From Streptomyces sp. SID13031 (lineage in GTDB: Bacteria > Actinomycetota > Actinomycetes > Propionibacteriales > Kribbellaceae), in assembly GCF_010548305.1 (NCBI RefSeq), contig NZ_JAAGLV010000001.1, positions 868,001 to 932,000 of the forward strand: a stretch of 64,000 bases of DNA, written 5' to 3'. This document shows, one piece after another, positions 50,501 to 55,097 of the stretch. The first letter of the stretch is position 1; each line of letters opens with the position of its first letter. The notes under the pieces were generated by a model, which had not been told where the DNA came from, ran no database searches, and worked only from the letters and a program-made list of their open reading frames with translations. A program made the position numbers and the translations under genes.

Positions 50501-51228
50501 CTGCTGACGAACTGACCGGGCAGCAAGACCTGCCCCGGACCGATGACCTGCCGGCCATACCGTACCGGTTGGGCAGTGTCGTACGTCACTTGGTCGAGCC
50601 GTACATCCGGTGGCGCTACGAGTTGACCATCCACCACGAGGAGCGTTTCCCGGCGAGCGGCCCGGTCCTGGTCGCGCCGAACCACCTGGGCCTGCTCGAC
50701 GGGCCGTTACTGGGGGCCACGGCGCCCAGAATGATGCACCAGCTGGGCAAGGTCGAGGCCTTCCACGGGCTGCAGGGGTTCCTTCTGCATCGCGCTGGGC
50801 AGATTGCCGTCGACCGTTCGGAGTACGACATCCGGGCGATCCGCCGGGCGATCCAGATCCTGCGCGGGGGCCGGGTGCTGAGCGTGTATCCCGAAGGGAC
50901 CCGCGGTCCCGGCGACTTCCGCCAGGTGCGCGGCGGAGTGGCGTACCTGGCGATGGTCACGGGTGCGCCGATCCTGCCGGTGGCACTGCTCGGGACTCGC
51001 CGGCCAGGTGGCGATATCGAGGTCTATCCGCCCAAGGGCAGCCGGGTCGACGTGGTGTATGGCGAGACCTTCACGGTTGACCGCGTATCATTTCCCCGGA
51101 GGCATGTCGACGTACGCGCGGTTGCCGACCAGATCGGCGACGTGTTGCGGGCTCATGTGCAGGCGGCCGTCGAAGCCACCGGCCACCCGCTACCGGGCAA
51201 GCCAGACCATAAGGATCCTGATGAGTGA
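50497..51228 (+). CDS. PlsC-type acyltransferase (1-acyl-sn-glycerol-3-phosphate acyltransferase family)
   Basis: The 243-residue protein has the acyltransferase motif I NHLGLLD (N-H-x4-D), motif II around [11 protein letters not shown] and motif [14 protein letters not shown], the usual order for PlsC enzymes that make phosphatidic acid on the inner membrane face. PlsC between cmk and der is a common actinobacterial arrangement. Start ATG 50497 overlaps the cmk stop (ATGA). The C-terminal 8 nt overlap the der start. Confidence 0.9.
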
Positions 51229-52603
51229 CCTGCCCACCGGCTACGAGTTCGACGCGGAGCCGACCCACGACCGCGAGGACCTGGGCCCGCTGCCCGTGGT
51301 GGCGATCGTCGGCCGGCCGAACGTCGGCAAGTCGACGCTGGTGAACCGGATCATCGGCCGCCGCGAGGCTGTGGTCGAGGACACCCCGGGCGTTACTCGC
51401 GACCGCGTCTCGTACGACGCCAACTGGGCCGGCCGCGGCTTCACGCTGGTCGACACCGGCGGCTGGGATCCGGACGCCGTCGGCTTCGCCGCGCTCGTCG
51501 CCGCCCAGGCCGAGGTCGCGATCAACGCCGCGGACGCGGTGCTGTTCGTGGTCGACGCGACGGTCGGCATCACCGACTCCGACGAGGCCGTCGTCCGGGT
51601 GCTGCGCAAGGCGGGCAAACCGGTCGTACTGGCCGCCAACAAGGTCGACGACGCCCGCGTCGAGGCCGAGGCGATGAACCTGTGGAGCCTGGGCATCGGG
51701 GAGCCGTTCCCGATCTCCGCGATGCACGGCCGCGGGACAGGCGACATGCTGGACGCAGTGCTGGCCGCGTTGCCGGAGGCACCGGCCGAGCGGGACGCTC
51801 AGCTCGGTGGCCCGCGCCGGGTCGCGATCGTCGGCAAGCCGAACGTGGGCAAGTCCTCGCTGCTGAACAAGGTGGCGAAGGAAGACCGCGTCGTCGTCAG
51901 CGAGGTCTCCGGTACCACCGTCGACCCGGTCGACGAGGAGATCACCCTCGGCGGCAAGCAGTGGCGCTTCATCGACACCGCCGGCATCCGGCGCAAGGTC
52001 AAGAACGTGCAGGGGCACGAGTACTACGCCAGCCTCCGCACCAACAGCGCGATCGAGCGGGCCGAGGTCGTCGTCGTCGTGATCGACGCGTCCGAGCCGA
52101 TGACCGAGCAGGACCTGCGGATCATGAACACCGTCGAGGAAGCCGGTAAGGCCCTCGTCATCGCCTACAACAAGTGGGACCTGGTCGACGAGGACCGGCG
52201 CTACTACCTCGAGCGCGAGATCGACCGCGACCTGGTCCAGTTCCGCTGGGCGCCGCGGGTCAACATCAGCGCGATGACCGGCCGCCACATGGAGAAGCTC
52301 GTACCGGCCATCGAGGCCGCTCTGGACGGCTGGCAGACGCGCGTCCCGACCGGCCAGCTGAACGCGTTCCTGGGCCGTCTGGTCGCCGCCCACCCGCACC
52401 CGGTGCGCAGCGGCAAGCAACCGAAGATCCTCTTCGGCACCCAGGCGACAACGATGCCCCCGACCTTTGCGATCTTCACCTCGGGCGCCTTCGAGCCGTC
52501 GTACCAGCGCTTCATCGAACGCCGCCTCCGCGAGGACTTCGGCTTCGTCGGCAGCCCCGTCCACGTCCAGATCCGCCCCCGCGTGAAGAAGCTGAAACAC
52601 TAG
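51221..52603 (+). CDS. der: Ribosome biogenesis GTPase Der (EngA)
   Basis: Der is a tandem GTPase required for 50S ribosomal subunit assembly. The 460-residue protein has two G domains, with P-loops GRPNVGKS (31-38) and GKPNVGKS (205-212), G3 segments DTGGW and DTAGI, and the AANKVDD and AYNKWDL specificity motifs, then a C-terminal KH-like domain ending [10 protein letters not shown] chose the ATG at 51221, overlapping plsC by 8 nt; a long open frame upstream is rejected. Two hairpins lie between its stop and the tRNA gene. Confidence 0.96.
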
Positions 52604-52631
52604 GACCGCTGGTCAAAACTGCTCTCCGAAT

Positions 52632-52670
52632 GGGGTAAGGTTTACCCCGGTCGTCCTCCCGGGGACGACC
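52632..52670 (+). terminator. Two tandem hairpins between der and tRNA-Pro
   Basis: GGGGTAA/TTACCCC (52632-52648, 3-nt loop) and GGTCGTCC/GGACGACC (52649-52670, 6-nt loop) are both perfect and directly adjacent. They could end der or be processing signals for the tRNA precursor. TAAGGT inside the first could also be the tRNA -10 box. Confidence 0.45.
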
Positions 52671-52673
52671 GTT

Positions 52674-52750
52674 CGGGCTGTAGCGCAGCTTGGTAGCGCA
52701 TCTGGCTGGGGGCCAGAGGGTCGCAGGTTCAAATCCTGTCAGCCCGACCA
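52674..52750 (+). tRNA. tRNA-Pro (anticodon GGG)
   Basis: The gene folds into a cloverleaf: acceptor CGGGCTG/CAGCCCG, D stem GCGC/GCGC, anticodon stem TCTGG/CCAGA with loop CTGGGGG (anticodon GGG, reading CCC and CCU), T arm GCAGG-TTCAAAT-CCTGT, then discriminator A and an encoded CCA. Total 77 nt. A perfect terminator begins within its last bases. Confidence 0.97.
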
Positions 52751-52790
52751 TAAAGAGGGGCACCGATCTGTCGGTGCCCCTCTTTATGGT
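52747..52790 (+). terminator. Perfect 20-bp terminator starting in the tRNA-Pro CCA end
   Basis: ACCATAAAGAGGGGCACCGA (52747-52766) is exactly complementary to 52771-52790 around a TCTG loop. The first four bases are the end of the tRNA. Confidence 0.85.
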
Positions 52791-52796
52791 CTCCGT

Positions 52797-53576
52797 ATGA
52801 ACACGATTGGGGACAAGCGCAGTTGGAGCGATGCCCAACTGCGTAAGGCGGTTGAGGACAACAGGTCTTGGCGGGCGGTTGCCCGCGCTCTGGGTCTGAA
52901 GGACACCTCCGCGGGTGTGATTCGCACCATCAAGCGGCATGCGCTCAGGCTTGAGTTGGACAGCGAACACTTCACCGGGCAGCGCCGATGGACAGATGGT
53001 CAGCTTCGTGAAGCTCTGCTTGGATCGACCTGCTGGAGCGAGGTCTTCGTCAGCCTTGGAATCTCCGACAGCGGTCAGGACCGAGTCCGGATCAAGGGGC
53101 ATGCCGTCCGGCTCGATCTCGACTGCAGCCACTTGAAGACGCCACACCGTGCGTCGATGACGGGCGAGGTGTTCGACCAGCCGGTTCAGCCGGAAATGCT
53201 CAGTGCTGCGGCACCAGGCATTGCCATGGCGTGGTTCGCCATGCGTGGTTGCGCGGTCGCGTTGCCTGTCGAACCGCAGTTGTATGACCTCTTGGTGACC
53301 ACTAAGGATGGTATCCAGCGGGTGCAGATCAAGACGGGTGTCCGCGCAAACGGTCGGGGCCGCTGGAGCGTCGGTGTGGGGCGGCGCCCGTACCTGCTCG
53401 ACAAGTCGGCCGGCAAGATGCCCTACGATCCGGATTCTCTCGACCTGTTCTTCATCGTCCTCGGTGACGGCAGCATCTACGTGATCCCGAGTTCCGTCCT
53501 CGCCGGGCGAGTCGGGATCTATGTCGACACCTACCTGCCGTATCGCGTAGGTGATGCCTCCGGCGTCGTGAGCTGA
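52797..53576 (+). CDS. Free-standing PD-(D/E)XK endonuclease with duplicated DNA-binding region
   Basis: The 259-residue protein has two copies of a helix-rich DNA-binding module at about 8-58 and 62-115, seen in the shared pattern W-x-D-x-QLR and LG followed by IK-x-HA-x-RL-x-LD. The C-terminal 140 residues show a nuclease core: AMAWFAMRG helix, the acidic YDLLVTT strand and VQIKT with the catalytic lysine. This matches the group I intron-associated PD-(D/E)XK nucleases (I-Ssp6803I-like homing enzymes of tRNA introns). Here the tRNA is uninterrupted. The ATG lies 6 nt after the terminator with no ribosome-binding site. GC appears lower than in neighbouring genes, suggesting acquisition. Confidence 0.7.
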   Translation: MNTIGDKRSWSDAQLRKAVEDNRSWRAVARALGLKDTSAGVIRTIKRHALRLELDSEHFTGQRRWTDGQLREALLGSTCWSEVFVSLGISDSGQDRVRIKGHAVRLDLDCSHLKTPHRASMTGEVFDQPVQPEMLSAAAPGIAMAWFAMRGCAVALPVEPQLYDLLVTTKDGIQRVQIKTGVRANGRGRWSVGVGRRPYLLDKSAGKMPYDPDSLDLFFIVLGDGSIYVIPSSVLAGRVGIYVDTYLPYRVGDASGVVS

Positions 53577-53644
53577 GGGGGAGAAGCCGTCACCACACTC
53601 GCCGACTTGATTGCGGAGTAATGATGTAAGCAGGAGGCGGCGAG

Positions 53645-54574
53645 ATGATGGATGACGATGTGTTGGATGCGTACTCCCGGGTGGTGTCGGGGGTGGCGGA
53701 GCGGTTGATTCCGCGGGTGGCGAGTCTGCGGGTGCAGGGGCGGCGGGGTGACTCGTCCGGGTCGGCTGTGGTGCTGACCGGTGACGGGCATCTGCTGACG
53801 AACGCGCATGTTGTCGGTGATGGCAGCAGCGCGACGGCGGAGTTCGCGGACGGTACGGCGGCGCAGGCGCGGGTTATCGGGGTGGACCGGCTGTCCGATC
53901 TCGCGGTACTGCGGGCTGACCGGGAGATCCCCGACCCGCCGGAGTACGGCGACGCGGACAAGCTCAAGGTCGGCAATCTCGTGGTTGCCGTGGGCAACCC
54001 GCTGGGCCTGGCCGGGAGCGTGACGGCCGGGGTGGTGAGCGCTCTCGGGCGATCGCTGCCGGTCCGGTCGGGGACGGCGAGCCGGATCATCGAGGACGTG
54101 ATCCAGACCGACGCGGCGCTCAACCCGGGCAACTCCGGCGGAGCGCTTGCCGATGGCAACGGTCGCGTGATCGGCATCAACACGGCGGTCGCGGGCATCG
54201 GTCTCGGCCTGGCCGTGCCGATGAACCCGACCACCCGCAGGATCATCTACGCGTTGCTGCATGACGGCAGAGTCCGCCGCGCCTACTTGGGCTTGGTCAC
54301 CACCCCGGCCCCGCTACGCCCGCAGTTGGCGGAGCGCTTCGGTCAACGGAGCGCGCTGCGCGTGGTCGAGGTGATTTCCGGCAGTCCGGCCGCGGAAGCC
54401 GGCTTGCGCCAAGGCGACCTGGTCCTCGCGGTAGACGGCACTCCGCTGCGAGACGCCCAATCCCTCCAACGCCAGCTCTTCGCCGACGCGATCGGGCGTC
54501 GTACTGAGATCACCGCAGTCCGCAATGACGCCCTGGTCGACGTCGTCGCCGAGCCGGCCGAGCTCACCGACTGA
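53645..54574 (+). CDS. HtrA/DegP-like serine protease without signal peptide
   Basis: The 309-residue protein has a trypsin-like domain with the triad His55 (TNAHVV), Asp85 (LSDLAVL) and Ser164 (NPGNSGGAL), and one C-terminal PDZ domain (about 225-305, with SGSPAAEAGLRQGDLVLAVDG). HtrA proteases handle misfolded proteins, normally outside the membrane. This one has neither a signal peptide nor a membrane segment, so it should be cytoplasmic. AGGAGG lies before the ATG at 53645. Its last 11 nt overlap the convergent GNAT gene. Confidence 0.9.
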   Translation: MMDDDVLDAYSRVVSGVAERLIPRVASLRVQGRRGDSSGSAVVLTGDGHLLTNAHVVGDGSSATAEFADGTAAQARVIGVDRLSDLAVLRADREIPDPPEYGDADKLKVGNLVVAVGNPLGLAGSVTAGVVSALGRSLPVRSGTASRIIEDVIQTDAALNPGNSGGALADGNGRVIGINTAVAGIGLGLAVPMNPTTRRIIYALLHDGRVRRAYLGLVTTPAPLRPQLAERFGQRSALRVVEVISGSPAAEAGLRQGDLVLAVDGTPLRDAQSLQRQLFADAIGRRTEITAVRNDALVDVVAEPAELTD

Positions 54575-55097
54575 GCGGAGCCTTGAGTAGTACGCCGGTG
54601 CCTGGCTTGAGTGGGGAGTTGGGGAAGGTGAAGTTGCGGGTGACTTCGGTGAAACCCAACCTCTGGTGGAGGTCGAGGGTTGCGTTGTTGGCGAGGTTCG
54701 CGAAGTAGTGGATCTCGTCGGCGCGTTCGGCCGTCCAGCGCATTCGGTCGAGGGTGAGCAGCTCGCCGATCCCGTACCGCCGCCAGGTCGGCGCGACGAT
54801 CAGGCCGACCAGGTAGTAGCCGGTTGGGGCCGTTGGATACTCGGGGGTGAGTTCGTAGTGAAATACGCCGCCGTAGCCGATCACTTCGGATTCTGCGCAG
54901 GCGACCGCGACGTACCGGTCGGCCTGCTCGAGATCGGTGAGCAACCGCTCTCTGCGGTCCTCGGCGGATCCGCCAGTGCGGGTGACGATCAACTCGGCGC
55001 AGACAGCGAGATCCGCGGCGACGGCCGGTCGTACCGAGATCGCGCTCTCTGTAGGCCGGCGGGTCGAGTCGGGGTCGTAGGGCGCGAAACCGTTCAT
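54564..55097 (-). CDS. GNAT family N-acetyltransferase
   Basis: The 177-residue protein has a single GNAT domain: the start SVRPAVAADLAVCAELI, the strand YYLVGLIVAPTWRRYGIGELL with the R-R-Y-G-I-G acetyl-CoA loop, and the late NATLDLHQRLGFTEV. The substrate is unknown. TAGGCT (plus-strand 55106-55111) lies 8 nt upstream of the ATG at 55097, suggesting a leaderless message. It converges on the HtrA gene with an 11-nt overlap. Confidence 0.88.
   Translation of the reverse strand: MNGFAPYDPDSTRRPTESAISVRPAVAADLAVCAELIVTRTGGSAEDRRERLLTDLEQADRYVAVACAESEVIGYGGVFHYELTPEYPTAPTGYYLVGLIVAPTWRRYGIGELLTLDRMRWTAERADEIHYFANLANNATLDLHQRLGFTEVTRNFTFPNSPLKPGTGVLLKAPLSR

Follow-up and report, generated by a model that had tools for sequence, protein, structure and literature searches.

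What is the open reading frame (ORF) that lies immediately behind an intact tRNA-Pro(GGG) gene in this genome, and what accounts for its position? The 64-kb stretch of DNA that we analyzed (the window) belongs to contig C47 of an 8.5-Mb genome (G000) whose named close relatives are Kribbella species. A first-pass annotation had proposed a selfish endonuclease gene tied to the tRNA, and had suggested either a homing enzyme that lost its intron or an element that spreads by cutting unoccupied tRNA-flank sites. We conclude that the ORF is very likely a homing endonuclease gene of the free-standing, intronless kind, with predicted cleavage activity, that targets tRNA-Pro(GGG) and spreads between bacteria. 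The features of the locus are collected in Table 1.

Table 1. Features of the tRNA-Pro(GGG) locus and its neighbors, with positions in the window
Feature	Position	Strand	Evidence or remark
tRNA-Pro(GGG), intact, genome-encoded CCA	52674..52750	+	ARAGORN; Rfam tRNA 64.9 bits; ORF adjoins it in every bearer
21-bp perfect hairpin, loop 4 nt	52746..52791 (arms 52746-52766 / 52771-52791, loop 52767-52770)	+	folding energy
ORF, 259 aa, predicted free-standing homing-type endonuclease	52797..53576	+	ATG 5 nt past hairpin
HTH-like DNA-binding module 1, ~residues 10-60, ends in DSEHFTGQ	52824..52976	+	AlphaFold helices H12-21, H25-31, H39-51; phrog_10822
HTH-like DNA-binding module 2, ~residues 64-115	52986..53141	+	AlphaFold helices H67-76, H80-87, H93-105; second phrog_10822 stretch
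PD-(D/E)XK nuclease core, ~residues 132-253	53190..53555	+	PF11645; Foldseek 2ost; invariant columns
D164; Q177-x-K179	53286-53288; 53325-53333	+	catalytic columns of the 259-aa ORF
der (GTPase), upstream neighbor, conserved in Kribbella	51221..52603	+	start inferred from ORF; vertical-divergence control
HtrA-like protease, downstream neighbor in part of Kribbella	53645..54574	+	second flank control

ARAGORN and Rfam both recover the tRNA gene that the annotation had placed ahead of the ORF, and we presume it to be both the homing target and the resident site of the ORF. The hairpin behind it starts within the GACC of the tRNA 3' end, has a folding energy of -42.4 kcal/mol (z = -9.4), and is the probable intrinsic terminator of tRNA-Pro(GGG), as had been supposed, with the corrections that its stem exceeds the 20 bp first given and that the start codon does not lie 6 nt but 5 nt beyond it. 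A similar hairpin is present in most Kribbella genomes without the ORF as well. Apart from the tRNA, no RNA family of Rfam, group I introns included, was detected in positions 52000-54600; the tRNA is uninterrupted and the ORF does not lie inside a group I intron, so it does not belong to the intron-encoded (I-) type. The GC and codon-usage comparison with der and the HtrA gene that the annotation had put forward as a check sets the ORF lower on both counts, with a GC content of 62.4% versus ~69% in its neighbors and a GC3 of 75% versus 81-95%.

The encoded protein matches PF11645 (PDDEXK_5) over residues 143-233 (E = 1.9e-5). Its score lies close to the cut-off of 26.1 bits (25.1 for the whole protein, 26.2 in a genome search), several relatives score well above it, and the family is matched by 29/29 aligned relatives (best E = 1.6e-13). 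The residues D164, Q177, and K179 of the YDLLV / VQIK motif, which correspond to the catalytic residues of PD-(D/E)XK enzymes, are invariant in 29 sequences. An AlphaFold model based on these 29 sequences (pLDDT 87), used in place of a poorer one based on 17 close sequences (pLDDT 67), consists of two three-helix modules followed by the nuclease core. When this model was submitted to Foldseek, the only PDB matches at E <= 0.001 were the four chains of I-Ssp6803I, the best being 2ost_A (E = 3.2e-7, probability 1.00, TM 0.69 on the target), which places the core in the PD-(D/E)XK fold. A sequence-profile search also ranked 2ost first (E = 0.0026), with the YDL and VQ(V/I)K motifs aligned; plain phmmer of the window protein against the PDB gave no match. 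The two tandem DNA-binding modules, the YDLLVTT/VQIKT core, and the I-Ssp6803I type of fold named in the first-pass annotation are thus borne out. The N-terminal modules match phrog_10822 HNH endonucleases in two stretches (E = 2.6e-15), indicating that a DNA-binding module is common to the ORF and to an unrelated type of nuclease. Among other candidates, an NCBIfam match to MshC (E = 0.012) was attributed to chance, and a defense gene was rejected in the absence of any match of the window protein to PADLOC defense models.

The ORF is found in 20/38 Kribbella genomes, in all 20 directly 3' of tRNA-Pro(GGG), and the genomes without it keep this tRNA. Upstream, der is constant, while the downstream neighbors differ across the genus and include HtrA, an MMPL-like gene, and others. 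On the rpoB tree, presence and absence of the ORF require at least six changes and most simply eight. Such patchy distribution, combined with discordance with flanks and host, is characteristic of homing endonuclease genes. Two side observations concern the same genomes. In G001:C110, G004:C294, and G037:C2, a gap of 2.4-2.7 kb separates der from tRNA-Pro, which are adjacent elsewhere in Kribbella; this gap is another insertion, upstream of the same tRNA. In the complete Kribbella genome G018, rpoB (C1:3337708-3341017) is split over two reading frames, probably by a frameshift or a sequencing error.

Pairwise comparisons locate the discordance precisely. Between G000 and G007, der and HtrA are ~90% identical and the gene is 60-70% identical (mostly 58-77%), with a sharp shift at both its start and its end, while G000 and G030, with flanks again ~90% identical on both sides, share a gene that is 80-91% identical. 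Synonymous measures agree: pS is 0.083 in der and 0.587 in the gene for G026-G029, 0.141 and 0.599 for G006-G016, and 0.238 and 0.640 for G000-G007 (HtrA 0.383). In concordant pairs the corresponding values are 0.121 and 0.142 (G024-G026) and 0.259 and 0.402 (G000-G030; HtrA 0.394). As the same gene is matched to its flanks in some pairs and grossly more divergent in others at equal flank distance, alleles must have been replaced at a single, fixed location. The rpoB tree joins G006 and G016 as sisters (support 100), a relationship that the gene rejects (p-AU = 0.0078). Intact copies have a dN/dS of ~0.1-0.2 in most pairs, so function is maintained by purifying selection. Other copies have decayed, with the core lost in frame in G005, a broken copy in G036, and a copy in pieces in G663; together with the scars of ORF loss in G445 and G673 (see below), these broken copies trace the gain, decay, and loss expected of homing endonuclease genes.

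An ordinary host gene, for instance a regulator or repair nuclease that is vertically inherited beside tRNA-Pro and merely evolves fast, would account for the constant place in Kribbella and for the purifying selection. It would not account for a pS that in some pairs departs from that of both flanks and in others agrees with it, which rate alone cannot explain, nor for the rejected sisterhood of G006 and G016, the absence from 18/38 species with six to eight or more changes, or the differing flanks, sides, and strands in other genera (see below); we consider it very unlikely. The mobile character assigned to the ORF at first pass is upheld by its patchy presence, allele replacement, and gene-tree discordance, and neither of the two outcomes named then as contrary to that reading (a fold without a PD-(D/E)XK core, or universal presence with vertical phylogeny and normal codon usage) was found.

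Beyond Kribbella, all distant full-length relatives examined from order- and class-level profile searches lie beside tRNA-Pro(GGG) (L090-L093, L101-L109), as do a decayed relative (L110) and one on a predicted viral contig (L205), giving 15/15 distant relatives in all. Their placement varies: downstream on the same strand, upstream and divergent (L092, L093, L106), or tail to tail (L108). Because side and strand vary and tRNA-Pro(GGG) does not, the tRNA is the common denominator, and the recurrence of the arrangement in 20/20 Kribbella bearers and every distant relative found is more than chance. Residence at one fixed site across genomes is a mark of homing endonucleases, and it substantiates the tie to the tRNA gene that had been suggested. 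The idea of a homing enzyme that lost its intron finds no such backing, as no intron-borne relative and no intron RNA in the flanks was seen, and the relatives may precede or follow the tRNA in either orientation. One locus (L102/L126; G491:C12:46358-47920) carries two tandem endonucleases behind a single tRNA-Pro(GGG), the second of which has a degraded catalytic region, with QVR in place of QVK.

Since tRNA genes are common att sites, the ORF could alternatively be cargo or a remnant of a larger integrative element, an integrase-type island for which the tRNA served as the att site. The endonuclease on the viral contig (IMGVR_UViG_2935054407), which is 39% identical to the window protein, might be taken in this sense and represents the edge of a prophage or else a possible vehicle. 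However, no second copy of the tRNA-Pro(GGG) 3' end is present within the window, in agreement with the first-pass annotation, so that the combination of integrase and duplication that defines such islands was not found; moreover, the insert is a single ORF, the neighboring intergenic region resumes within tens of bases, and the gene also occurs upstream of the tRNA and on either strand. An integrative element is therefore extremely improbable as the source of the ORF, and the free-standing homing endonuclease is the reading that we retain. In a search for a phage or plasmid vehicle, no full-length relative was found in phages or plasmids, a result that counts against the retained reading. Vibrio phages Pylo and River4 encode, at ~75.2-75.7 kb, a hypothetical protein with ~31% identity to the window protein over the C-terminal part of the latter.

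Weaker profile matches share only the HTH module, here joined to an HNH nuclease, and lie beside tRNA-Leu(TAG), once tRNA-Leu(TAA), often ending 11-60 nt before the tRNA. A search with an HNH profile returned 30 loci, each of which (30/30) has a tRNA in the stretch: three have Leu(TAA), six have Thr(TGT), and most have Leu(TAG). The proteins encoded beside tRNA-Thr(TGT) (L279, L281-L285) are small and have a zinc-ribbon-like N-terminus and no HTH module. Canonical short PDDEXK_5 proteins (~140 aa; L130-L135) lie beside tRNA-Arg(TCT), most divergent, at a distance of 55-141 nt. For comparison, no tRNAs occur in 20 background stretches, each 15 kb long and upstream of rpoB (300 kb in total). Each nuclease family is thus tied to one isoacceptor, unlike the generic use of tRNA genes as att sites, and the ORF represents a single branch of a phenomenon that involves several nucleases and several tRNAs, a wider setting to which the first-pass annotation was blind.

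The tRNAs concerned are themselves unusual. Kribbella tRNA-Pro(GGG) occurs as 22 haplotypes in 38 genomes, with a mean difference of 19% and a maximum of 35%, compared with 3% for tRNA-Pro(CGG) and 5% for tRNA-Leu(TAG) in the same genus, where an endonuclease was found beside tRNA-Leu(TAG) at 0/30 loci. Up to four pair types occur at one position and 797/798 stem pairs are standard, which indicates functional diversification and not decay. Distances between these tRNAs are uncorrelated with rpoB distances (r = 0.00) and weakly correlated with distances between the endonuclease genes (partial r 0.18, p = 0.03). In a Mycobacterium-like genus, the Pro endonuclease is rare (6/199 genomes) and tRNA-Pro(GGG) varies by 3%; in a Streptomyces-like genus, HNH genes beside tRNA-Leu(TAG) are common and that tRNA varies by 21% (both genus labels are tentative). 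We also observed that about 17 of the tRNA-Leu(TAG) genes beside HNH genes (L113, L114, L115, L118, L122, L260, L262, L264-L268, L270-L272) and 4/4 tRNA-Leu(TAA) genes (L119, L273, L278, L280) measure only 74-78 nt by ARAGORN; those of them whose sequences were inspected have a class-I-like short variable loop where a long variable arm is expected.

Part of this variation concerns the anticodon arm. In the Streptomyces-like genus, an arm other than the canonical CTGGG-TTTAGGT-CCCAG is found in 13/14 HNH bearers and 3/15 non-bearers (p = 1.2e-4), and in 15/17 bearers that were found via the protein. The locus downstream of tRNA-Leu(TAG) is the same in 26/29 cases and thus orthologous, and a tree of this locus implies 10 changes in presence (six of them forced). 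Among supported independent pairs, arm state follows presence in 5/6, with one against, numbers too few to reach 0.05; sister rows such as G832/G848, G881/G834, and G853/G869 provide examples. Recoded arms are found in six bearers of the Mycobacterium-like genus and the canonical arm in 22/25 of its non-bearers, an association with p = 6e-4 when the decayed bearer with a canonical arm (L110) is counted. These bearers share a downstream context and have, upstream of tRNA-Pro (L286-L289, L297, L298), a promoter sequence different from that of non-bearers, so the association may reflect a single lineage, and we give it less weight as independent support; promoter, tRNA, and gene look as though they had traveled together or made up a separate locus of long standing. 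Of the three recoded non-bearers, two (G445 and G673) contain no ORF, retain what appear to be its first and last codons, and have beside these the recoded tRNA that also occurs in the bearer G300, as expected for former bearers. In Kribbella, four tRNA-Pro(GGG) haplotypes are shared by genomes that have the gene and genomes that lack it, so tRNA recoding alone does not explain occupancy there, which argues against resistance as a straightforward rule.

Given that the tRNA is constant whereas its flanks and the side and strand of the gene are not, the target of the endonuclease most likely lies in the tRNA gene itself, and probably in its anticodon arm, the region named for I-Ssp6803I in an entry of the reference list of PMC3984707. 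The earlier proposal that unoccupied sites in the tRNA flank are cut is therefore probably better recast: cutting beside the tRNA gives way to cutting of the tRNA gene. The recoded tRNA of a bearer probably protects it from cutting itself.

Altered anticodon arms in many bearers would also fit an anticodon-nuclease toxin, a competition or defense module that cuts the tRNA (as RNA) in its anticodon arm and whose bearer is immune through the recoded adjoining tRNA; such a toxin would likewise lead to tRNA diversification. The protein, however, contains HTH DNA-binding modules and has a DNA homing endonuclease as its closest structure, and the same DNA-binding module occurs with either of two unrelated DNase folds, PD-(D/E)XK and HNH. 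The window protein matches no defense model, its HNH relatives match PADLOC "homing endonuclease" models first, and no secretion signal or partner gene was seen. Together, these features make an anticodon nuclease quite unlikely and favor an enzyme that acts on DNA.

For the homing endonuclease, we propose the following model. The two tandem HTH modules would bind the DNA at the tRNA-Pro(GGG) locus, which the core of the I-Ssp6803I type would cut, presumably on both strands. When the gene enters a cell in which the tRNA-Pro(GGG) locus is unoccupied or holds another allele, the break would be repaired from the incoming copy by recombination, such that the ORF, often with the neighboring tRNA allele, is copied in beside an intact tRNA. 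The bearer would escape self-cutting through a recoded yet base-paired arm or an altered junction. In time, the ORF would decay and then be lost.

More broadly, the ORF may exemplify a general class of actinobacterial chromosomal selfish elements, each made up of a stand-alone endonuclease (PD-(D/E)XK or HNH, in most cases with the common HTH modules) and a recoded allele of the targeted tRNA gene that resists cleavage; the two would home jointly and thereby force repeated compensatory rewriting of an uninterrupted host tRNA (Pro-GGG, Leu-TAG, and others); we regard the existence of this class, which is apparently undescribed, as an evenly balanced proposition. tRNA genes count as slow-evolving and universally conserved, whereas here single isoacceptors differ by ~20% among congeners with their stems still paired, and, in the genus/tRNA combinations that we compared, this hyperdiversity goes with the presence of an endonuclease specific to the tRNA. 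It appears that the actinobacterial cutters, tied to individual tRNAs, make their target tRNAs change at an unusually high rate without loss of function. If recoding is resistance, a selfish DNA cutter is driving compensatory evolution of the translation machinery. The families also add many natural enzymes that may recognize individual tRNA genes, and they suggest that bacterial chromosomes commonly contain free-standing homing endonucleases, a type of enzyme known best from phages and organelles.

Several described systems resemble this one in part. A literature search restricted to open-access papers returned no description of chromosomal tRNA-linked endonuclease families, and we consider their novelty provisional. 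I-Ssp6803I (PDB: 2ost), a PD-(D/E)XK homing endonuclease that belongs to the group I intron of a cyanobacterial tRNA-fMet gene, has in common with the window protein the core fold, the motif spacing (YDL ... VQVK, with 15 residues from D to K in both), association with a tRNA gene, and probably a comparable target region. In contrast to I-Ssp6803I, the window protein is actinobacterial and free-standing, has no intron and two extra HTH modules, and accompanies another tRNA, which is uninterrupted in the bearer. Canonical PF11645 members (~140 aa) lack HTH modules and reside beside tRNA-Arg(TCT). The phrog_10822 and PADLOC "HEase" HNH endonucleases share the HTH module and residence beside one tRNA, but their nuclease fold is unrelated and their tRNAs are different.

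SegB of T4-like phages, a GIY-YIG enzyme, likewise is encoded by a stand-alone gene beside intact tRNA genes and undergoes intronless homing. SegB is found in phage genomes, whereas the present genes are chromosomal, have different folds, and associate with one isoacceptor per family. The concept of intronless homing is reviewed in PMC3984707, and SegB is cited for the inheritance of the T4 tRNA region in a passage of PMC6582537. The nearest described case is that of HNH homing-type genes within large mycobacterial tRNA arrays, which are thought to be horizontally acquired (PMC6582537); those arrays are phage-like and comprise many tRNAs, while the genes described here accompany a single host tRNA in a core locus.
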